60,031 nt of DNA. It comes from Streptomyces glaucescens (lineage in GTDB: Bacteria; Actinomycetota; Actinomycetes; Streptomycetales; Streptomycetaceae). A model generated the notes under the pieces. It was not told the DNA's origin, did not search any database, and saw only the letters and a program-made list of their open reading frames with translations. A program made the translations under genes and the position numbers. Location: NCBI RefSeq assembly GCF_002154375.1, contig NZ_MUND01000001.1, positions 1-60,031 of the forward strand, given 5' to 3'. Shown piece after piece: positions 4,374 through 60,031 of this stretch (position 1 is its first letter; every line of letters begins with the position of its first letter).

Positions 4374-5516
4374 CTACAGGAGGGTTTTCAGCTTCTCCGC
4401 CAGCAGGTCCCAGCGCCACTTCTCCTCGACCCACCGGCGGCCCCGCTCCCCCATCCGGCGGCGCAGTTCCGCGTCGGCGAGGAGAGTGGTGATGCGGTCG
4501 GCGGCCTCCTCGGGGGCGCCGCCACGCACCACCCAGCCGGTCTCGCCGTCGAGCACCGCGTCGGGCGCGCCGCCGGAGTCACCGGCGACGACGGGCAGCC
4601 CGGTCGCGGAGGCCTCCAGGTAGACGATGCCCAGGCCCTCGACGTCGAGCCCGCCGCGCCGGGTGCGGCAGGGCATGGCGAAGACGTCACCGGCGCCGTA
4701 GTGCGCGGGCAGCTCGGACCAGGGCACGGCTCCGGTGAAGCGCACGGAGCCGGCGACGCCGGTCTCGTGGGCGAGGCGGCGCAGGTCCTTCTCGTAGGGG
4801 CCGCCGCCGACGATCAGCAGCACCGCGTCCGGCTCCTTCGCGAGGATGCGCGGCATGGCCTGGATGAGGGTGTCCTGGCCCTTGCGCCGCACCAGCCGCG
4901 AGACGCAGACCACGACCGGCCGGTCGGTGAGTCCGAGCCGGGCCCGCACCTCGGCGCCGCCCGACTCGGGGTGGAAGGTCTTCTCGTCGACCCCGGGCGG
5001 CAGCTGCGTCATGCGCGCGGCGGCCTGCGGGGTGAGCGCCGAGGCGATCCGCGAGCGGGTGTACTCGCCCAGGTAGGTCAGGGTGTCCGTGCCCTCGCCG
5101 ATCCGGCGCAGCAGCTGCCGGGCGGCGGGCAGCTGGGCCCAGCCGGCTTCGTGCCCGTGGGTGGTGGCGACCAGGCGTTCGGCGCCGGCCCGGCGCAGCG
5201 CGGGCGCCATCAGCCCGAGCGGCGCGGCGGCCCCGAACCACACCGACGTGCAGCCGTGCTCGCGCAGCAGCCCGACGGCCCGCCGGGTGGCGGCGGGGGT
5301 CGGCAGCAGCATGGTGGTGGCGTCCCGTACGACGGTGAAGGGCTGCTCTGCGTCGAACGCGGCCGTCGCCTCCCGGCCCTCGTGGCCGCGCTTCCAGGTG
5401 GAGGCGTAGACGACGAGCCGGTCGGGGTCGAGGCGGAGGGCCATGTTGTGCAGGAACGCCTGGATGCCGCCGGGGCGGGGCGGGAAGTCGTTCGTCACGA
5501 TGAGGGTCTTGCGCAT
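4374..5516 (-). CDS. GT4 glycosyltransferase, PimB'-like mannosyltransferase
   Basis: This 380-residue glycosyltransferase has the GT-B fold. The N-terminus is MRKTLIVTNDFPPRPGGIQ, with the family-typical DFPPRPGG acceptor loop. The C-terminal donor-binding motif EGLGIVYLEASATGLPVVAG is at about residues 293-312, with the two glutamates of the E-x7-E signature. This fits the GDP-mannose-dependent PimB'/MgtA group, which build phosphatidylinositol mannosides or related glycolipids at the inner membrane. The start at 5516 gives the canonical N-terminus; longer upstream readings look non-coding. It is divergent from a GT87 mannosyltransferase-like gene, suggesting a common role in mannolipid synthesis. 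The exact acceptor is inferred. Confidence 0.85.
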   Translation of the reverse strand: MRKTLIVTNDFPPRPGGIQAFLHNMALRLDPDRLVVYASTWKRGHEGREATAAFDAEQPFTVVRDATTMLLPTPAATRRAVGLLREHGCTSVWFGAAAPLGLMAPALRRAGAERLVATTHGHEAGWAQLPAARQLLRRIGEGTDTLTYLGEYTRSRIASALTPQAAARMTQLPPGVDEKTFHPESGGAEVRARLGLTDRPVVVCVSRLVRRKGQDTLIQAMPRILAKEPDAVLLIVGGGPYEKDLRRLAHETGVAGSVRFTGAVPWSELPAHYGAGDVFAMPCRTRRGGLDVEGLGIVYLEASATGLPVVAGDSGGAPDAVLDGETGWVVRGGAPEEAADRITTLLADAELRRRMGERGRRWVEEKWRWDLLAEKLKTLL

Positions 5517-5646
5517 CGTCGCCGACCCTACCCAACGTAGACTCACAGGCCGGTACGGCCGTGCTTTTGGTCTTCGCACAGGCGGCCGGGGGATCATGGC
5601 CCCGACAGCACCCGGGACGGCCATCGGACGGAAGCAGGGGCTCGAC

Positions 5647-6885
5647 GTGGACAGGACGGACGGCCGGCGGCAGGTGCCGTGGCTGCTGGCGGTGTGGGCC
5701 CTGACCCGGCTGTTCCTGCTGCTCTTCGTCTTCAAGGTGTACGTCTTCCCCGGCCCCGACGTCACCAGCGACATCTCGGTGATCTACCAGGGCTGGTACG
5801 AGGTCCTGCGCACCGGAACGTTTCCGCTGGACGATGTCACCTGGCAGTACCCGCCGGCCGCCGCGCTCGCGGTGCTCTCCCCCGCGCTGCTGTTCTTCCT
5901 CGACTACGCGCACGCCTTCTTCGTCCTGGCCTTCCTCGCCGACCTCATCGCGTTCGCCCTCCTGCTGTACGCCGCCGGGCGCCCCGGCCGGACCCCGCGC
6001 GGCGCCTGGGTGTGGGTCGCCGGGGTGCCGCTGCTCGGGCCGACCGTCTACGCCCGCTACGACGTGATGGTCACCGCCGTCGCGGTGGCGGCGCTGCTCG
6101 CGGGCGCCCGGCGTCCCCGCCTGATGGGCGCGCTGACCGCGTTCGGGGCGCTGCTGAAGGTGTGGCCGGTGCTGCTGCTGGTGGCCGCCCGGGGGCGGCG
6201 CGCCTGGGTCTCGGCGGCGGTCACCGCCGCGGGTGTCGCGGCACTGTTCGCGCTGGCCATGCCCGGCGCGTTCGCCTTCCTGACGTTCCAGCGGGACCGG
6301 GGCACCGAGGTGGAGTCGCTGGGCGCGCTGGTCTTCCACGTGGCGCGGCACTTCGGCTGGGACGGGCAGGTGCTGCTGAACTACGGCTCCGTGGAGTTCC
6401 TCGGCCCGTACGTGGAGGCGGTCAGCACGGCCGCGCTCGCGCTGACCGGCGCGGCGTTCGGCTGGCTGCTGCTGTGGCGGCTGCGGGCGGTGCGGTTCGA
6501 GCCGCACACCCTCGCGGACGCGGCGTTCGTGGCGGTGCTGCTGTTCACCACCACCAGCCGGGTGATCAGCCCGCAGTACCTGGTGTGGCTGGTCGGGCTC
6601 GCGGCGGTGTGCCTGTGCTTCCGGGCGAGCCGGATGGGGCCGGCGGCCGGCCTGGTGCTGGCGGCGTCCTTCGTGACGGTGCTGGAGTTCCCCGTCTGGT
6701 TCTCGCACGTCGTGGCGAGCGACAACCTGGGCATCACCCTCCTGGTCGTCCGCAACGGCCTCCTGGTCGCCGCCACCGTCGTCGCCGCCCGGGTGCTGTG
6801 GCGGGCGACCGTGTCCCGCCCGGCCGGGCCCGCCCCGCTGCCCCCTCAGGCGACCCGGGCCAAGGAGCCCACGCCCTCCTCCTGA
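5647..6885 (+). CDS. GT87-family polyprenol-dependent mannosyltransferase-like membrane protein
   Basis: This polytopic membrane protein of about 412 residues has roughly ten hydrophobic segments and a long C-terminal cytosolic Pro-rich tail. Features typical of GT87 (DUF2029) are an early acidic loop after the first helix (FPGPDVTSDISVIYQGWY), the VTWQYPPAAA segment, and ARYDVMVTAVA followed by GALLKVWPVLLL. Members use polyprenyl-phosphate mannose outside the membrane to extend lipomannan-type or phosphatidylinositol mannosides. The GTG at 5647 has AGGGG six bases upstream; an ATG at 5596 would add 17 residues and has poorer spacing. The 3' end overlaps the convergent MATE gene by 40 bases. 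Confidence 0.85.
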   Translation: MDRTDGRRQVPWLLAVWALTRLFLLLFVFKVYVFPGPDVTSDISVIYQGWYEVLRTGTFPLDDVTWQYPPAAALAVLSPALLFFLDYAHAFFVLAFLADLIAFALLLYAAGRPGRTPRGAWVWVAGVPLLGPTVYARYDVMVTAVAVAALLAGARRPRLMGALTAFGALLKVWPVLLLVAARGRRAWVSAAVTAAGVAALFALAMPGAFAFLTFQRDRGTEVESLGALVFHVARHFGWDGQVLLNYGSVEFLGPYVEAVSTAALALTGAAFGWLLLWRLRAVRFEPHTLADAAFVAVLLFTTTSRVISPQYLVWLVGLAAVCLCFRASRMGPAAGLVLAASFVTVLEFPVWFSHVVASDNLGITLLVVRNGLLVAATVVAARVLWRATVSRPAGPAPLPPQATRAKEPTPSS

Positions 6886-8156
6886 CGCCGGCCGCGGCGC
6901 GCCAGCACCGCGAGTGCCGCGCACTGCACCGCCATGGCGAGCGCGAGCGCCAGCGCCACGCCGGGCAGGCCCAGTCCGGACAGCAGGTATGCCAACGGCA
7001 GCTGCACCGCCGTGCCGAGCACGGTCACCCGCAGCAGCAGCGGTGCTCCCCCGCTGCCCTCGAGGACCCCGCCGAACGCGATGAAGCAGGCCATGAGCAG
7101 CAGATACGGTCCGGCGCAGCGCAGGAACAGCGCACCGGCCGCGGCCACCTCGGGCCCGGCGCCGAAGGCGGCCATGATCCAGGGCGCGGTGGCCGCGAGC
7201 AGCACCGCGGCCACCAGTCCCACCGTCCCGGAGATCAGTGCGGCCTGCCGCGCGATGACGCGCCGCGCGTCCCTGCCCTCCCCCCGGGTGTGCGCGGTGT
7301 GGATCGCGGCGGCCTGCCGCACCGCGTAGAACGCCATCGTGGCGACGAACATGACCTTGAACGCGATCGAGTACGCCGCCACCGCCGTCACCCCGAGCCG
7401 TGCCACGACCGCCACCAGCGCGAGCGCGCCCGCCTGCCGCACGGTGAAGTCGGCGGACATCGGCAGTCCGGTCCGCAGGGTGCGCCGCAGCGCCGCGCCG
7501 AGGGGCCCGGCGGGTGGCGCCCCGGCCCGGAGCAGCGGGTTCCGCCGTACGGCCACGAGTCCGGCCCCGAGGGCGAGGCAGCGGCACAGCACGGTGGAGG
7601 CGGCGGCGCCCTGGACGCCGTAGCGGTGGATGAGCCAGGGGTCGCAGACGAGGATCAGCCCGCCGGCGAGGAGGGCGAGCCGCATGGGCGTCCGGGTGTC
7701 GCCCGCGCCCTTCAGCAGCCCGTCCACGAGCTGCTGCGCGAAGAAGACGGCCATGCCGGGCAGGGAGATCGCGAGGTAGGCGGCGGCCGGGGGCACCGCC
7801 GCGCCGCCGCCCAGCGCCAGCCGGGCGAGCGGTTCGCGCAGCAGGAACCCGCCGACGGCCACCAGGGGCGTCACCAGGGCGCACAGAGCCCAGCCGCCCC
7901 GCACGGCCGCCCGCACGGCGGCGGGGTCACGGGCGCCGCGGGCGTGCGCGACCAGCACGGTGGTGCCGGAGCCGAAGACGAGCGCGACGCCGAGCAGCAC
8001 GTTCTCGACCGTGGTCGCCATGGCCACGGCGGCCACGGCCGGTCCGCCGAGCCGGGCGACCCAGACGGTGTTGATGATCCCGGCGGCGACGGACGCCAGG
8101 AGCTGCGCGTAGACGGGTCCGGCGAGCGAGACGAGCTGCTTGCGGTCGGTGGCCAC
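6846..8156 (-). CDS. MATE-family efflux transporter
   Basis: This integral membrane protein of about 436 residues has 12 hydrophobic segments in two similar halves, the pattern of MatE (MOP superfamily) sodium- or proton-driven multidrug exporters. The N-terminal half contains LAGPVYAQLLASVAAGIINT and VARLGGPAVAAVAMATT, typical of helices 1-2. The GTG start at 8156 has GAGGGGG five bases upstream. Upstream lies a 27-bp palindrome and the divergent padR-type gene, so the exporter is almost certainly repressed by that regulator. The stop lies 40 bases inside the convergent GT87 gene. The transported substrate is unknown. Confidence 0.92.
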   Translation of the reverse strand: MATDRKQLVSLAGPVYAQLLASVAAGIINTVWVARLGGPAVAAVAMATTVENVLLGVALVFGSGTTVLVAHARGARDPAAVRAAVRGGWALCALVTPLVAVGGFLLREPLARLALGGGAAVPPAAAYLAISLPGMAVFFAQQLVDGLLKGAGDTRTPMRLALLAGGLILVCDPWLIHRYGVQGAAASTVLCRCLALGAGLVAVRRNPLLRAGAPPAGPLGAALRRTLRTGLPMSADFTVRQAGALALVAVVARLGVTAVAAYSIAFKVMFVATMAFYAVRQAAAIHTAHTRGEGRDARRVIARQAALISGTVGLVAAVLLAATAPWIMAAFGAGPEVAAAGALFLRCAGPYLLLMACFIAFGGVLEGSGGAPLLLRVTVLGTAVQLPLAYLLSGLGLPGVALALALAMAVQCAALAVLARRGRRQEEGVGSLARVA

Positions 8157-54926: not shown

Positions 54927-55664
54927 ATGAACACGCTCGCCCGTCTCTGCCGCGCCGAATGGGGACCCCTGTACGCGGCCGTGCGCCCACCGCTGCTGCG
55001 GCGGCGGCTGGGGGCCGTCCCGCTGACCGTCGGGGCGGTCTGCCTGACCGCCGTCCTGCACGGGGTGCACGGCACGTCGTGGGGCTACGGCCTCGTGCAG
55101 GGAGCCGGCACCGTGCGTGCGGCGGACCCGCTGTGGCTCGCCCTGCTGCGCACGCCCCTCTCCCTCTTCGTCCCGGCCCTCGACCTGCCGGTGTGGGGCG
55201 CGCTCGCCCAGATCCTGGTGGTCTTCGGGATCGCGGAGCTCTGTCTCGGCCGCCGCCGCACCCTCGCGCTCGCCTACGCCGCCACGCTCGCCGGGACGCT
55301 GTACGCCCGGCTGGGCATCGCGCTCGGCCCGCACACCCCGCTGGGCCTGCCCACGACGGACGCGCACGTCGTGGACACCGGCCCGTCGGCGGCCGTGGTG
55401 GGGCTCGCGGTGTACGTCGGCTGGCGCCACGGCGCGTATGTGACCGCGGGAGCGGTGATCGCGGCGATGGTGATCGAGGTCCTGGTGAAGGAGAACCTGG
55501 CCGGCAAGGAGCATCTGGCGGCGATCGCCGCGGTGTCGGCGCTGTGCGCGGCCGGTGCCCTGCGTCAGCGGTGGTCCAGGGCGCGGACGGGCTCGTCGGG
55601 GGCGCCGCCGATCCAGTCCTGGACCCTGCGGGACAGGCCCGTCCAGCGGCGGTCGTGGCGGTAG
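54927..55664 (+). CDS. rhomboid-like polytopic membrane protein, likely non-catalytic
   Basis: This protein of 245 residues has about six hydrophobic segments. The order resembles rhomboid: a first helix, HGVHGTSWGYGLV, a paired helix region, DTGPSAAVVGLAVYVGWRHG (where active rhomboids have GxSG) and GKEHLAAIAAVSAL near the last helix. The GPSAAV block keeps a serine, but the His-containing last helix is atypical, so proteolysis is uncertain. The C-terminal basic tail (from about residue 213) lies in the 100-base overlap with the convergent gene. Known in related genomes as a rhomboid-like protein; function unknown. Confidence 0.7.
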   Translation: MNTLARLCRAEWGPLYAAVRPPLLRRRLGAVPLTVGAVCLTAVLHGVHGTSWGYGLVQGAGTVRAADPLWLALLRTPLSLFVPALDLPVWGALAQILVVFGIAELCLGRRRTLALAYAATLAGTLYARLGIALGPHTPLGLPTTDAHVVDTGPSAAVVGLAVYVGWRHGAYVTAGAVIAAMVIEVLVKENLAGKEHLAAIAAVSALCAAGALRQRWSRARTGSSGAPPIQSWTLRDRPVQRRSWR

Positions 55665-56329
55665 GCGCGCAGGGCGGAGCGGGCGCGGGCGCGCGGCCGG
55701 CGGGCGTAGAAGCGGCGGGCCCACGCGGAGCCGGGGCGGGCCAGGCGGACGGCGCCGACGAGGGCGACGAGGGGCACGACCGTGCCGAGCAGCGCGGTGC
55801 GCAGCTTGCCCTTGCAGAGGGCGACGAGGGAGAAGGCGAAGTTCCCGGCGACGGTGGCGATGACGGTGCCCCGCCCCTGGCGTTCCTCGTCGTCGACGCC
55901 GTTGACCTCGAACGGGGAGAATCCGGCGAGGACCAGGCCGACCACGGCCACGGTCAGCACCACGACCTCGACGCTCTTGCGGCCCGCCTCGCTCCAGTAG
56001 ACGTCGTCGAGGTGCAGGATCAGCGCGAACTCGTCGAGCACCAGCCCCGCGCCGATCCCGAAGAGCACCGCGCACACCGCCGGGCCGAGTCCTTCCCGCC
56101 CGCTGGCCACCGCGCCGAACCCGCCGATGACGGTGAGCACGACACCCGGGACGACGTGGTGGATGTGGACTCCGCCCGCGCCCTGGACGTTGCGGAAGGG
56201 GCCCTTGCCGGCGCGGATCGTGCGGGTGATCAGCCGGGTGACCACGAAGGTGAGGACGAAGGCGGCGAGGGCAAGCAGCAGGGGGAGTTTGCCGGGTTCG
56301 ACGATGTTGCGTTCCAGCCACTGCCCCAT
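55565..56329 (-). CDS. conserved integral membrane protein
   Basis: This protein of 254 residues has five to six hydrophobic helices and a basic Arg-rich C-terminus (RRFYARRPRARARSALRAYR). The conserved-looking segments are GGVHIHHVVPGVVLTVIGGF and GLVLDEFALILHLDDVYWSE, where His and Asp residues in or near the membrane suggest metal or substrate contacts. I do not recognise a family with known activity. ATG 56329 is chosen; a longer form reaching 56413 would overlap the cobS start. It is convergent with, and overlaps by 100 bases, the rhomboid-like gene, and is divergent from cobS. Confidence 0.75.
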   Translation of the reverse strand: MGQWLERNIVEPGKLPLLLALAAFVLTFVVTRLITRTIRAGKGPFRNVQGAGGVHIHHVVPGVVLTVIGGFGAVASGREGLGPAVCAVLFGIGAGLVLDEFALILHLDDVYWSEAGRKSVEVVVLTVAVVGLVLAGFSPFEVNGVDDEERQGRGTVIATVAGNFAFSLVALCKGKLRTALLGTVVPLVALVGAVRLARPGSAWARRFYARRPRARARSALRAYRHDRRWTGLSRRVQDWIGGAPDEPVRALDHR

Positions 56330-56391
56330 ACGTCCCAGTGTGGCCGGATTCCGCTCGGGGCGCCGTCCGGACGGTCGCGTACCCTTCCGGC

Positions 56392-57183
56392 GTGTCCCCG
56401 ATCTTGCCCGCACCGCCCGCGCACGGCCTCCGTTTCGCCTTCGGCACGCTCACCGTCCTGCCGGTGAAGGTGACCCGCTGGGACCGGGACGCCGCCCGCG
56501 GCGGCATGCTGTGCGCGCCGGTCGCCGGGCTGGCCGTGGGCGCCCTCGCGGCGGCGGCCGGGGTACTGCTCCTGCTGCTCGGCGCCGGGCCGCTGCTCGC
56601 CGGCGTGGCCTCCGCCGCCGTACCGGCCGCGCTCACCCGGGGACTGCATCTGGACGGGCTGGCCGACACCGCCGACGGTCTGGGCAGCGCAAAGCCCGCC
56701 GAGGACGCGCTGCGCATCATGAAGCAGTCGGACATCGGTCCGTTCGGGGTGATCACCCTGCTCTTCGTGCTGCTGGCCCAGACGGCCGCCCTCGCCGAGG
56801 CCTACGCCGGCTCCTGGGCGCGAGGCGCGCTCGCCGCCGTGGTCGCGGCCACCGCGGCCCGGCTGGCGCTGACCCTCGCCGCGCGCACCGGAGTGCCCGC
56901 CGCCCGCCCGGAAGGGCTGGGCGCGGCGGTCGCGGGGGTCGTGCCCCGCAGCGGGGCGCTGGTCGTGGCGCTGCTCGTGCTGGGGGCGGCGGCGGGCGGG
57001 GGCGCGCCGCTCGGCGCGTACGACGTCGGCCGGGCGGTCCTCGCGGTGCTGCTCGCGCTCGGCGCGGCGGAGCTGCTGCTGCGGCACTGTGTGCGCCGGT
57101 TCGGCGGGGTGACCGGCGATGTGTTCGGCGGGCTCGCCGAGACGGCGGCGACGACGGCGCTGGTCGTCCTCGCCCTGGGCTGA
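56392..57183 (+). CDS. cobS: adenosylcobinamide-GDP ribazoletransferase (cobalamin synthase)
   Basis: This 263-residue membrane protein joins GDP-cobinamide and ribazole to form cobalamin. Motifs are FGTLTVLPVK near the N-terminus, the acidic metal motif GLHLDGLADTADGLG (about 80-94), MKQSDIGPFGV and GVTGDVFGGLAE near the end. It has about six helices. GTG 56392 has no ribosome-binding site; TACCCT at 56380-56385 suggests a leaderless mRNA. It follows cobT and the CobU fusion, so the nucleotide-loop pathway is complete here apart from a phosphatase and DMB synthesis. It nearly abuts the convergent GH114 gene (8 bp). Confidence 0.95.
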   Translation: MSPILPAPPAHGLRFAFGTLTVLPVKVTRWDRDAARGGMLCAPVAGLAVGALAAAAGVLLLLLGAGPLLAGVASAAVPAALTRGLHLDGLADTADGLGSAKPAEDALRIMKQSDIGPFGVITLLFVLLAQTAALAEAYAGSWARGALAAVVAATAARLALTLAARTGVPAARPEGLGAAVAGVVPRSGALVVALLVLGAAAGGGAPLGAYDVGRAVLAVLLALGAAELLLRHCVRRFGGVTGDVFGGLAETAATTALVVLALG

Positions 57184-57191
57184 GCCGGGGT

Positions 57192-57995
57192 TCAGCAGGC
57201 CCGGCGCCACGCCCCCAGCTCGTACCTCTTCAGCATCGAGCTGAGCCCGAGGCGCCGCGCCTCGGGGCAGAAGCCGCGCGTCGGCACCTCGTACTCCACG
57301 TGGAAGACGGCCTTGCCCGCCTCGATGAACGGGCTGAGGGTGTCGCACTCGTCGTACTGGGCGCACTGCTCGTTGACCGCGAAGTCGAAGTCGCCGACCA
57401 GCTCGGGGATCTGGTCGAGGTCGTTCTTCAGGCCCACCGCCAGGCCCCGCTCGTGGGCGAGGCGGGCGATCAGCCGGTTGTAGCGGAGCTGGTCTGCGGC
57501 GGTGAGCGGAAAGCCGGTGCGGTTGCGGTAGCCGTCCATGTTGTCCGGTTCCACCGCGTCGAAGCCCTTGTCCCGGCACATGTCGACGCGGGCCGCCATC
57601 AGCGGCTCCAGGACGTCGGTGCGGCGGATGTCGAGCCACCGCTCCCCCTTCCAGCCGTTGCCCCTGCCGAGCACCGCCTCCGGGAACTTCCCGGCGTCCG
57701 GACGGAACTCCTCCCAGGCTCCGGTGGACAGGTAGCAGATCACCTTGCGGCCCCGGCGGTGCAGGTCGGCCACGGTGTCCGCGTCGTGGTCGAAGCCGTC
57801 GATGTCGTAGACCGGCACGTCGACCGTCGGGTCGAGACGGCCGCTGAGCTGCCACTGCCAGGGGGTGCCGGGGCGCGGCTGCCAGAGCTGCCCGGGGGGG
57901 CGCTCCGGCTTGTCCGGCGTGTCCGCGCGGTCGGGCGCGGACGTACAGCCCGCGACCAGCAACAGCAGGGCGAGCAGGAGGATCGGGCGTCTCAC
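57192..57995 (-). CDS. GH114-like endo-alpha-1,4-polygalactosaminidase lipoprotein
   Basis: This protein of 267 residues has a lipoprotein signal (RRPILLLALLLLVAGC, Cys near 16) and a Pro-rich linker, then a TIM-barrel-like GH114/TM1410 domain. WQWQLSGRLD opens the domain, VDVPVYDIDGFDHD is strand 1, RKVICYLSTGAWEE follows, then DAVEPDNMDGY and VNEQCAQYDEC, whose Asp and Glu are likely catalytic. GH114 enzymes cut alpha-1,4-linked galactosamine polymers, as in the hydrolase domain of PelA. The GTG start overlaps the spherulin-4-like gene stop (GTGA). The substrate is inferred. Confidence 0.88.
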   Translation of the reverse strand: MRRPILLLALLLLVAGCTSAPDRADTPDKPERPPGQLWQPRPGTPWQWQLSGRLDPTVDVPVYDIDGFDHDADTVADLHRRGRKVICYLSTGAWEEFRPDAGKFPEAVLGRGNGWKGERWLDIRRTDVLEPLMAARVDMCRDKGFDAVEPDNMDGYRNRTGFPLTAADQLRYNRLIARLAHERGLAVGLKNDLDQIPELVGDFDFAVNEQCAQYDECDTLSPFIEAGKAVFHVEYEVPTRGFCPEARRLGLSSMLKRYELGAWRRAC

Positions 57996-58639
57996 CGGGC
58001 GGGCTCCAGGGTGTGCGGCAACGTACCCCAAGGATGATCGCCCGTGCCGGGCACCGCGCAGTGCACGGTGGCGCCGCGCTCCCGGGCCGGTCCGGCGAGG
58101 TCGACGCCCGGGGGGACGCCGTGGACGAGGTGGCACTGGCGCGCCCCGGTGACCGGCCAGGGCTGCGGCGGCCGGGTGCGGTACGTCGTCCAGTCGCCCT
58201 CGAAGGTGACCACGACGTCGGCGATGCGGGCGTAGCAGGGGTGGGGCGGGGTGCCGTGGTTCAGCACGAGGGTGGCGCAGCCCGCCGCCCAGGCGGCACC
58301 CGCCAGCCGGCGGTAGTGGGCGAACTCCTCGGGGCCGGCGGCCGCCTGGTCGAGGAAGGCGCCGTCGGTGGCGTACCAGTCGCGGTACCGCTCGAGGTCG
58401 CGGGCCACGTCGGCGTACGGGCGGCGGCCGTAGTCGGTGTCGGTGTACCCGAGCACCCGGACCTCCGCGGCCCGCAGCCGGGCGGCGACCTCGGCGAACG
58501 CCGGGTCGGGGGCCTCGCCCGGCCCGCTGGCCGGGTTGAGGACCACACCGTGGAGGCGGGGCGCGGCGGCGACGATCGCGTCCCATTCGGCGGGGCGGAC
58601 GGACGGGTGCTCGTAGTACGGGACCAGCAGGGTGCTCAT
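57992..58639 (-). CDS. spherulin-4-like protein
   Basis: This 215-residue protein starts MSTLLVPYYEHPSVRPAEWD. Conserved-looking blocks are GVVLNPASGPG (about 32-42), VLGYTDTDYGRRP, DGAFLDQAAAGPEE and TLVLNHGTPPHPCY, the pattern of the spherulation-specific family 4 TIM barrels, which are related to glycoside hydrolases. It has no signal peptide, so it should be cytosolic. It overlaps the genes on both sides by four bases (ATGA upstream, GTGA downstream). It is thus locked in an operon with the GH114 lipoprotein and the membrane protein. Its activity is unknown. Confidence 0.85.
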   Translation of the reverse strand: MSTLLVPYYEHPSVRPAEWDAIVAAAPRLHGVVLNPASGPGEAPDPAFAEVAARLRAAEVRVLGYTDTDYGRRPYADVARDLERYRDWYATDGAFLDQAAAGPEEFAHYRRLAGAAWAAGCATLVLNHGTPPHPCYARIADVVVTFEGDWTTYRTRPPQPWPVTGARQCHLVHGVPPGVDLAGPARERGATVHCAVPGTGDHPWGTLPHTLEPAR

Positions 58640-60031
58640 CGGTGGGCGCTCGCCCTTCCCAGCAGGACGCAGACCAGGGCCGCCTGGACGACGGCGCAGG
58701 CGCCGTACACCGTCATGGCGACCCCGTGCGGCTCACCCGTACGGGTGACCAGCGCCAGGGTCTGGACGAGGGCGGCCGTGCAGCACACCGCCGCCGCGCC
58801 GTGGATCGCGCCGAACGACTGGAGCAGCAGCCCGGTCCACAGCACCACGCCGAGCAGCAGCAGCCCGGCCAGGCGGACCCCGGTGGGCTCGGGGGAGCCC
58901 GGCCACAGGGCGGTGGCGGCCGGCGCGAGGGCGAGCAGCGCGGCGAGGTAGCCGGCGAGGCAGCGGACGAGGATCAGGGCGGCGGCACGCCGGAAGGCGC
59001 GGGGGGTGCCGGTGGAACGCAGCGCGGCGAGGCTGCCGCTGCGGAAGCGGTACAGCAGCCATTCGGCGGGCCCCATGCTGAGGGTGAGCGCCACCGCGGC
59101 GGGCGCCGCGACCGCGCTGTGCGTTCCGCCCGCCAGGACGTCACCGAGCGCCGCGTGGAGCACCAGGACACCGCTGCCGAGGCCGAACAGCGCGTACGGC
59201 ACGGAGCCGGTGAGCCGGGGGCCGCCGGCGCGGCGCGGGAACGGGTCCGGCGCACCGAAGGGCAGCAGCGCCGTCAGGCCCGCCGTCCAGCTGCCCTCCC
59301 CCGGCTCGCGCAGCGCGGGGGCCACGTCGAGCAGGGCGAGCGCCGAGACCACGGCCAGCGAGCCGAGCAGCAGGGCGATCCGGGCCGGCTCCGGCACCTC
59401 GGTGACCAGGGCCGCCACCGCCCCGGCCGCCATCGGTGACAGTGCGGCGAGCAGGGCCCGTTCCCGGCCCATGACCAGCAGGACGGTGGCGGCGCCCAGG
59501 TAGCAGGACTGTCCGGCGGCGAAGGCGAGCGCGCCCGGGTCGGCGGTGTCCGCGACGGCGAGCGCGGTGAGCGCGCCGAGCAGGGCGCCGAGCGGCGCGC
59601 CGGCGAGGAGACAGCGGCGGGCGGCGGAGCGGTCGCCGAGGCCGAGCCACGAGTGGGCGCGGTGGGCGAGGCCCTGATTCCAGGTCCAGCCGGTGAGGGC
59701 GCCCGCGAGCAGCGGGACCGTGCCGGCGGGGAGGCCGAGGTCGTCGTCGGGGCCGGCGAGGAGCGGGGCGCCGAGGACGTAGGCGAGGCCCGGGAGGGCG
59801 AAGACCACGCCGCGCAGCAGACAGCCCAGCAGGCCCACCTGCCAGGGGTCGGGGACGGGGCCGTCGGGTTCGGGGTGGCGACGGTCGACGCGGGCGTACA
59901 GCTCCTCGGCGAGCGCGAAGGAGTCCTTCACCCCGTACCGCTCGCGTATCCGGTCGTCGGAGAGGCCGTCGGACTCCAGCAGCGCGGCGATCTCGTCGGG
60001 GTGGACGGCGGCGGCTGTGAAGTCCTCCAGC
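58636..60031 (-). CDS. large polytopic membrane protein, 5' end outside window
   Basis: The open frame continues past the right edge, so only the last about 464 residues are visible. The edge-proximal part reads AAAVHPDEIAALLESDGLSD and RERYGVKDSFALAEELYARV, a soluble helical region. About 12 hydrophobic segments follow, from LGCLLRGVVFALPG to the C-terminal YGACAVVQAALVCVLLGRAS. The count and spacing resemble flippase or MATE-like exporters such as PelG, but no diagnostic motif is seen. It precedes the spherulin-4-like gene with an ATGA overlap. A polysaccharide-export role is suggested by the GH114 partner only. Confidence 0.75.
   Translation of the reverse strand, partial: LEDFTAAAVHPDEIAALLESDGLSDDRIRERYGVKDSFALAEELYARVDRRHPEPDGPVPDPWQVGLLGCLLRGVVFALPGLAYVLGAPLLAGPDDDLGLPAGTVPLLAGALTGWTWNQGLAHRAHSWLGLGDRSAARRCLLAGAPLGALLGALTALAVADTADPGALAFAAGQSCYLGAATVLLVMGRERALLAALSPMAAGAVAALVTEVPEPARIALLLGSLAVVSALALLDVAPALREPGEGSWTAGLTALLPFGAPDPFPRRAGGPRLTGSVPYALFGLGSGVLVLHAALGDVLAGGTHSAVAAPAAVALTLSMGPAEWLLYRFRSGSLAALRSTGTPRAFRRAAALILVRCLAGYLAALLALAPAATALWPGSPEPTGVRLAGLLLLGVVLWTGLLLQSFGAIHGAAAVCCTAALVQTLALVTRTGEPHGVAMTVYGACAVVQAALVCVLLGRASAHR

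Follow-up and report, generated by a model that had tools for sequence, protein, structure and literature searches.

What polymer, if any, is made by three overlapping genes at the right edge of a Streptomyces glaucescens contig, and what lies beyond that edge? The stretch analyzed here, called the window, spans contig 1 from end to end (C1; NZ_MUND01000001.1; 60,031 nucleotides) of an 8.43-Mb genome assembled in 1,135 contigs, and its right edge is the contig end. Three minus-strand open reading frames (ORFs) lie there, encoding a polytopic membrane protein (MEM), a spherulin-4–like protein (SPH), and a GH114 lipoprotein (Table 1). An earlier note on this DNA had proposed that they belong to a galactosamine-polymer system, and the two four-base overlaps that it described between the genes are exact. 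We find that the window holds what looks like the 3′ half of a five-gene operon, in the order agd3-like, pelF-like GT4, MOP-type exporter, spherulin-4, and GH114, as read from the sequences. Quite probably, its proteins synthesize, export, and process an exopolysaccharide that is rich in galactosamine and partly deacetylated, comparable to fungal galactosaminogalactan (GAG) and bacterial Pel. The proposal of a galactosamine-polymer system is thus supported, the polymer itself being deduced from the genes.

The Upstream Half of the Operon

Queries with the corresponding genes of a relative located the upstream half among the genome's own contigs. It lies on contig C353 (locus L063), where an Agd3-like frame (4494 to 6419) is followed by a GT4 gene (6565 to 8073), and a GTG start overlapping the GT4 stop codon (GTG/TGA) opens the frame of MEM. 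The C353 frame ends in ...DPIDELAERL and MEM in the window begins with LEDFTAAAVHPDE...; the uninterrupted relative L034 reads ...PVDELAVRLEDFIAAAVHPDE... across this point. In that relative (genome G009), the same five genes are found in the same order on a single 9.4-Mb contig, and C353 is placed next to C1 by synteny, not by overlap. The gene beyond the right edge, which the earlier note suspected to be a glycosyltransferase, is the GT4 of C353.

By sequence, the GT4 family is PelF. The NCBIfam PelF equivalog model was matched with 165 bits (L009) and 123 bits (L034) at a cut-off of 100, scores that belong to relatives and not to the C353 protein itself, and comparison of the GT4 family, in an alignment headed by the C353 GT4 of this genome, to six plasmid-borne PelF proteins by hhalign gave E = 1e-65 over 464 columns. 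Profile similarity and metal-site residues likewise place the Agd3-like protein, as a predicted member, with CE18 (Agd3). A 16-member profile matched the Agd3 crystal structure 6nwz with E = 3e-10, and residues D234, D235, H326, and H330 (D-D / HxxxH), invariant in 16/16 proteins, correspond to the base and metal triad named for Agd3 in PMC7229062. A phmmer search with a single Agd3-like sequence gave only a spurious match in the PDB (E = 0.1); it was the 16-member profile that found Agd3. The AlphaFold model of the Agd3-like protein is poor, with a predicted local distance difference test score (pLDDT) of 55.

Conservation in Related Loci

Related loci were taken as the best 80 of 332 confirmed MEM loci from a scan of named genomes. 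Each of the 80 bears the title Streptomyces or "Actinobacteria bacterium," and a few coincide with contigs of our G-labeled genomes; having been picked through MEM within a single genus, they do not count as independent events. The GT4 gene is immediately upstream of MEM in 77 of the 80, and in the remaining three no more than 100 bases separate MEM from the start of the contig; GT4 thus directly precedes MEM in 77/77 loci where the contig permits, so that homologs do co-occur with a glycosyltransferase, as the earlier note had anticipated. The Agd3-like gene is present in 75/80 loci, with all five absences at contig ends, and SPH is present in 75/80, with two absences at contig ends. GH114, found in 65/80, is the most dispensable member of the operon. 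The genes join by minus-4 junctions at GT4–MEM in 71/77 loci, at MEM–SPH in 42/75, and at SPH–GH114 in 62/63, counts that make the overlaps more than chance, and the gap between Agd3 and GT4 exceeds 40 bases in 66/75. The overlaps suggest cotranscription and translational coupling, although the fixed product ratio that had been read from them is unproven. In comparisons with four relatives, nonsynonymous divergence (dN) for MEM, SPH, and GH114 was 0.06 to 0.16 and synonymous divergence (dS) 0.21 to 0.53; all three genes are under purifying selection.

Export signals were assessed by a hydropathy test over start codons, not by SignalP. A hydrophobic leader was detected in 70/75 Agd3-like proteins and 0/77 GT4 proteins; with the same threshold applied at any start codon, it was present in 64/65 GH114 proteins vs. 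0/75 SPH proteins. In loci from two other families of the class (L165 and L168), MEM, SPH, and GH114 occur in the same order with MEM only 32 to 33% identical, and that order implies that the operon is older than Streptomyces or was transferred.

The Membrane Protein and Its Relation to PelG

MEM matched no family in Pfam and likewise none in NCBIfam. Its AlphaFold model, built with 43 homologs (pLDDT 81, predicted TM-score 0.77), has an N-terminal helical module of ~47 residues followed by 12 membrane helices, the number roughly foreseen in the earlier note. Foldseek returned WzxE and MATE transporters as best matches (E about 5e-4), and VIA-align gave Z 19.2 for MATE1, 14.0 for WzxE, and 12.4 for MurJ. 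Of the 50 VIA-align rows listed (Z 9.2 to 19.2, identity 6 to 13%), 49 are titled MATE/MOP, WzxE, or MurJ, and the remaining row is "protein A." A search of viral folds (BFVD) with the model gave no match with E below 0.001. We conclude with moderate confidence that the modeled MEM resembles the MOP superfamily (MATE/Wzx/MurJ), with twelve helices in that arrangement. The N-terminal module could possibly serve as a docking site for GT4 or SPH; when this genome was searched with the module, nothing but the two MEMs rose above noise. In function, MEM is probably comparable to a MOP exporter that takes the place of PelG. In the comparison with PelG and MATE flippases that the earlier note called for, the modeled fold matches exporters, MATE best of all, and membership of PelG is not borne out by sequence.

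PelG is affiliated with the MOP superfamily. The operon could be a true Pel system in which MEM is a diverged PelG, and the GT4 assigned to PelF, the position of MEM right after it, as pelG follows pelF in 6/6 annotated plasmid loci, and the MOP resemblance of MEM would all fit. A true PelG (470 and 459 bits), with the same partners around it, is encoded in two actinobacterial genomes that belong together to a different genus (G080 and G051; L155 and L156), which indicates that PelG and MEM fill the same slot. In locus L153 of another lineage (G041), a 564-amino acid (aa) protein beside a PelF-like GT4 matches both the MEM profile (4.7e-10) and, below the cut-off, Pfam PelG (18.3 bits, E = 5e-4), and a distant link between MEM and PelG is accordingly possible. 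Against a true Pel system, however, 0/21 MEM proteins match Pfam PelG, profile comparisons with eight PelG proteins gave no match, with the L153 protein included, neither PelG nor PelD_GGDEF, the c-di-GMP receptor of Pel operons, was found in this genome (a positive control for PelD, W01, gave 4e-46), and the predicted deacetylase is CE18/Agd3-like. PelG is absent from the list of structural matches to MEM, which excludes nothing with the tools used, and it is rare, exceeding the cut-off in 2/198 of the phylum sample. We regard a true Pel system as improbable. A partial PelG match just over the cut-off (30.1 bits) in G001, of the same genus, was discarded: the 1,255-aa frame that contains it encodes a membrane protein, looks unrelated, and is accompanied by no gene of the operon in 8.9 kb.

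About equally doubtful is a Wzx-like pathway, in which MEM would flip lipid-linked oligosaccharides for a galactosamine-containing cell-wall glycan and not a free polymer. The MEM model does match WzxE and MurJ in structure, and low-level galactosamine has been reported in Streptomyces walls (cited in PMC7229062), but none of the five genes resembles a Wzy polymerase or an initiating transferase, and GH114 and Agd3 act on polymers in known systems.

The GH114 Lipoprotein

GH114 matched Pfam Glyco_hydro_114 (PF03537) with E = 1.6e-88 (296 bits, cut-off 27) and the fungal Ega3 with E = 2.7e-61, and its catalytic pair, D151 and E209, is invariant in 11/11 aligned proteins; it is predicted to be endo-α-1,4-galactosaminidase-like. 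The lipoprotein site model LPAM_1 scored 18.4 bits, slightly below its cut-off of 20. GH114 had been described in the earlier note as the family of the PelA hydrolase domain, which is incorrect, since that domain is GH166 (PMC12054363). In two plasmid-borne proteobacterial pel operons (L157:4412-5311 and L158:4378-5202), pelG is immediately followed by a gene for an endo-α-1,4-polygalactosaminidase, which shares the strand of pelG in one operon and is inverted relative to it in the other. That the cluster is a scavenging one, its GH114 and Agd3-like enzymes degrading the GAG or Pel of fungi and other bacteria with no polymer of its own, is very unlikely: both enzymes bear export signals, and a secreted endogalactosaminidase was described for Streptomyces griseus in 1975 (as cited in PMC7229062 and PMC12054363), but the PelF-family GT4 and exporter-like MEM genes are overlapped with the hydrolase genes, GT4 and MEM stand together wherever the contig permits (all 77 such loci of the 80), and SPH is without an export signal.

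The Spherulin-4–Like Protein

SPH matched Pfam Spherulin4 (PF12138) with E = 1.5e-32 (113.5 bits, cut-off 30.2) and Sph3 (5c5g) with E = 5.7e-13, in an alignment that starts at the second residue of SPH. Among 75 relatives, D97 is Asp in 73/73 readable proteins and E147 is Glu in 74/74. The nucleophile of Sph3 is D166 in PMC8546845 and PMC10485009 and is printed as Asp196 in PMC12054363. The adjacent E167 is a putative catalytic residue of Sph3 according to a review (PMC10485009); its position is occupied by Gln in SPH of the window and in 73/73 readable relatives. We considered and dropped the idea that SPH of the window is catalytically dead: the Asp/Glu pair is kept, and Glu is lost only in the type C paralogs described below. 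Because none of the 75 relatives has a hydrophobic leader, SPH should be cytoplasmic. The fungal Sph3 is described as membrane-bound and as cutting polymer at the outer side of the synthase (PMC12054363).

Spherulin4 was detected in 19/246 genomes of a class survey. At the position of Sph3 E167, the 30 loci examined among the 32 matches listed have Gln in 15, Arg in 11, Glu in 2, Cys in 1, and Gly in 1. In the two loci with true PelG (L155:7447-14139 and L156:7321-14078), the genes for a PelF-like GT4, PelG, and an Agd3-like protein are accompanied by a spherulin gene on the other strand; that spherulin, 495 to 509 aa long, starts with a hydrophobic leader (identified by eye), retains both the DE and the Glu motif, and is considerably extended at its C terminus. 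The contrast between a spherulin secreted with intact Glu where PelG is used and a leaderless one where MEM is used comes from these two related genomes and is suggestive only.

Paralogous Gene Sets

We refer to the operon kind of the window as type A. A second complete set in the genome, type B, is located on contig C435 (L009:3736-13146) in the order Agd3, GT4, MEM, two SDR enzymes around a nucleotidyltransferase, SPH, and GH114. The insert between MEM and SPH comprises a LegB-like 4,6-dehydratase, a sugar-1-phosphate nucleotidyltransferase, and a second SDR. The type B set suggests a different polymer, possibly one with a 6-deoxy amino sugar. Among 150 Streptomyces genomes sampled, 124 encode a GT4 that is PelF-like with an E-value no higher than 1e-60, 41 carry a type-A–like GT4 (at least 72% identity; fragments in G552 left out), and 31 carry a type-B–like GT4 (64 to 68% identity); the two type counts were assigned by our own identity bands alone, irrespective of neighboring genes.

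Type C is found beside moeZ (a gene name given by eye from the protein) and consists of a GT4 (40 to 48% identical), a shorter MEM, an SDR, and SPH, at L050:7389-12459, L051:7346-12901, and, in this genome, C426 (L010:14593-15192, at a contig edge). Eight hydrophobic segments were counted in its MEM, compared with eleven in MEM of the window by the same measure. Agd3 and GH114 were not found in the type C stretches L050 to L052 (18 to 20 kb). In SPH of type C the acid/base Glu is replaced by Ser or Ala in 11/11 loci (L179 to L182, L190 to L192, L050 to L052, and C426), all of them beside moeZ, and in L181 and L052 the nucleophile is lost too. The median dN/dS of type C SPH is 0.33 (45 pairs, ten loci), with 0.09 for the SDR and 0.15 for MoeZ, which indicates that purifying selection maintains a protein from which no cutting is expected.

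Features of the Window

Gene order, gene families, the exporter-like fold, the presence or absence of signal peptides, and the conserved catalytic residues were taken from sequence or model, and the coordinates are collected in Table 1. The operon abuts cobS (cobalamin synthase; 56338 to 57183), which is present in 55/80 relatives, so the operon holds a conserved chromosomal position. Beside cobS, a 282-aa protein with no Pfam family (55565 to 56413) accompanies it in 49/80 relatives.

Table 1. Coordinates in the window of the three operon genes, their overlaps, and residues and segments of interest
Feature	Position	Strand	Remarks
Polytopic membrane protein MEM	58636..60031	-	464 aa in window; truncated at the 5′ end by the contig edge; whole codons from 60030
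MEM N-terminal soluble helical module (~residues 1-47)	59890..60030	-	Kept even in divergent type C proteins
MEM 12 predicted membrane helices (residues 67-463)	58642..59832	-	AlphaFold model
ATGA overlap, MEM stop / SPH start	58636..58639	-	Exact in sequence
Spherulin-4–like protein SPH	57992..58639	-	215 aa; GH135-type TIM barrel by homology; without signal peptide
SPH D97 (= Sph3 D166, nucleophile) and Q98 (= Sph3 E167)	58346..58351	-	Alignment with Sph3
SPH E147 (= Sph3 E222, acid/base)	58199..58201	-	Alignment with Sph3
GTGA overlap, SPH stop / GH114 start	57992..57995	-	Exact in sequence
GH114 endo-α-1,4-galactosaminidase-like lipoprotein	57192..57995	-	267 aa; Pfam
GH114 lipoprotein signal with Cys17	57945..57995	-	Cys invariant in 11/11 aligned
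GH114 D151 (= Ega3 D189)	57543..57545	-	Alignment with Ega3
GH114 E209 (= Ega3 E247)	57369..57371	-	Alignment with Ega3

Discussion

In the pathway that we propose for the operon, the cytoplasmic GT4 would polymerize uridine diphosphate N-acetylgalactosamine, and the 12-helix MEM would move the chain over the membrane. SPH, on the cytoplasmic side beside GT4 and MEM, would handle the fully acetylated nascent chain, which it may bind, cut when jammed, or set in length. The secreted Agd3-like enzyme would then strip acetyl groups, and the GH114 lipoprotein, on the outer face, would cut the deacetylated polymer and so tune its length and release.

Several observations weigh against this proposal. 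The ends of C353 and C1 have only four bases in common, and their join is unproven. The Agd3-like protein scored 23.3 and 17.2 bits with Pfam Agd3_CE, under the cut-off of 27.6. Foldseek TM-scores for MEM are modest (0.38 to 0.50 in the first 19 rows), and VIA-align itself notes that helical proteins can reach Z 13 through a common arrangement, so that the WzxE and MurJ matches (Z 9 to 14) are weak and MATE (14.5 to 19.2) alone is clearly above. MEM was rejected as PelG with an hhalign E of 0.61, and the best MEM in a PelG-profile hmmsearch had E = 0.34 (n = 21). Gln in place of E167 makes the activity of SPH uncertain. SPH is absent away from contig ends in three loci (L089, L096, and L097), and 12 of the 75 loci with SPH have no GH114, cobS coming after SPH in 11 of these (the twelfth, L138, shows no cobS); neither hydrolase, then, is strictly required. 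No epimerase is present among the five genes, and probes from the type B SDRs, the only epimerase-type probes, found nothing in type A loci. The identity of the polymer, the sugar donor, the formation of a complex, and the role of each protein are putative, being deduced from sequence and model.

The GAG cluster of Aspergillus fumigatus comprises uge3, sph3, gtb3, ega3, and agd3. The streptomycete operon resembles it in having a GH135 spherulin-4, GH114, a CE18 Agd3-like protein, and a GT4 synthase with a membrane part, and corresponds to the GAG set minus uge3, the UDP-glucose 4-epimerase gene. It differs in that its GT4 is soluble and accompanied by a separate 12-helix MEM, whereas the fungal synthase is one transmembrane protein (PMC12054363), and in its spherulin, which is without a signal peptide and carries Gln in place of E167. 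Like Gram-positive Pel (pelDEADAFG; Bacillus cereus) and Gram-negative Pel, the operon has a PelF-family GT4 followed by a multispanning membrane protein, together with deacetylase and hydrolase functions; unlike them, it has a CE18-type deacetylase, with no PelG or PelD_GGDEF found in this genome, and GH114 and GH135 in place of the GH166 PelA hydrolase. MEM shares the overall fold of its model with the MOP flippases MATE, WzxE, and MurJ, but has an extra N-terminal helical module and no Pfam match, and in the loci seen it is always beside a PelF-like GT4.

Operons of this kind were reported in 2020: PMC7229062 describes bacterial Agd3 operons with a cytoplasmic glycosyltransferase, a multispanning membrane protein, and GH114, and with spherulin-4 in some Actinobacteria, and the operon of the window is of the same kind. 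The parts of that text consulted, figures and supplements aside, do not give the fold of the membrane protein, the signal and residue changes of the spherulin, the paralogous types, or the cobS and moeZ positions. Literature searches for a characterized streptomycete version, of which the earlier note knew none, brought up no recognizable one beyond PMC7229062 and PMC12054363; the operon kind is known in print and, in the literature so listed, uncharacterized. The galactosamine-polymer pathway is an expected extension of a published system. Less expected are the apparently cytoplasmic spherulin, the unnamed exporter family, and the moeZ-side paralog whose spherulin is minus its catalytic acid/base. 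Tentatively, and at somewhat less than even odds, we propose that the streptomycete spherulin-4, instead of being an extracellular hydrolase, belongs to the polymer synthase as a cytoplasmic subunit and would act on the nascent chain together with GT4 and an exporter of a new, MOP-like family. With MEM it would have lost its signal peptide and exchanged Glu167 for Gln or Arg, and in type C it would be a chain-binding pseudoenzyme that primes, holds, or measures the polymer.

In Streptomyces, where pellet formation, surface attachment, and matrix chemistry are relevant to industry and soil, the operon is common and a candidate source of a cationic galactosamine polymer. With five genes, and with glycosyltransferase and exporter as separate proteins in place of a single synthase, it may serve as a simpler bacterial model for the fungal GAG pathway. 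It also opens to testing the question of why a polymer synthase retains an N-acetylgalactosaminidase-like protein.

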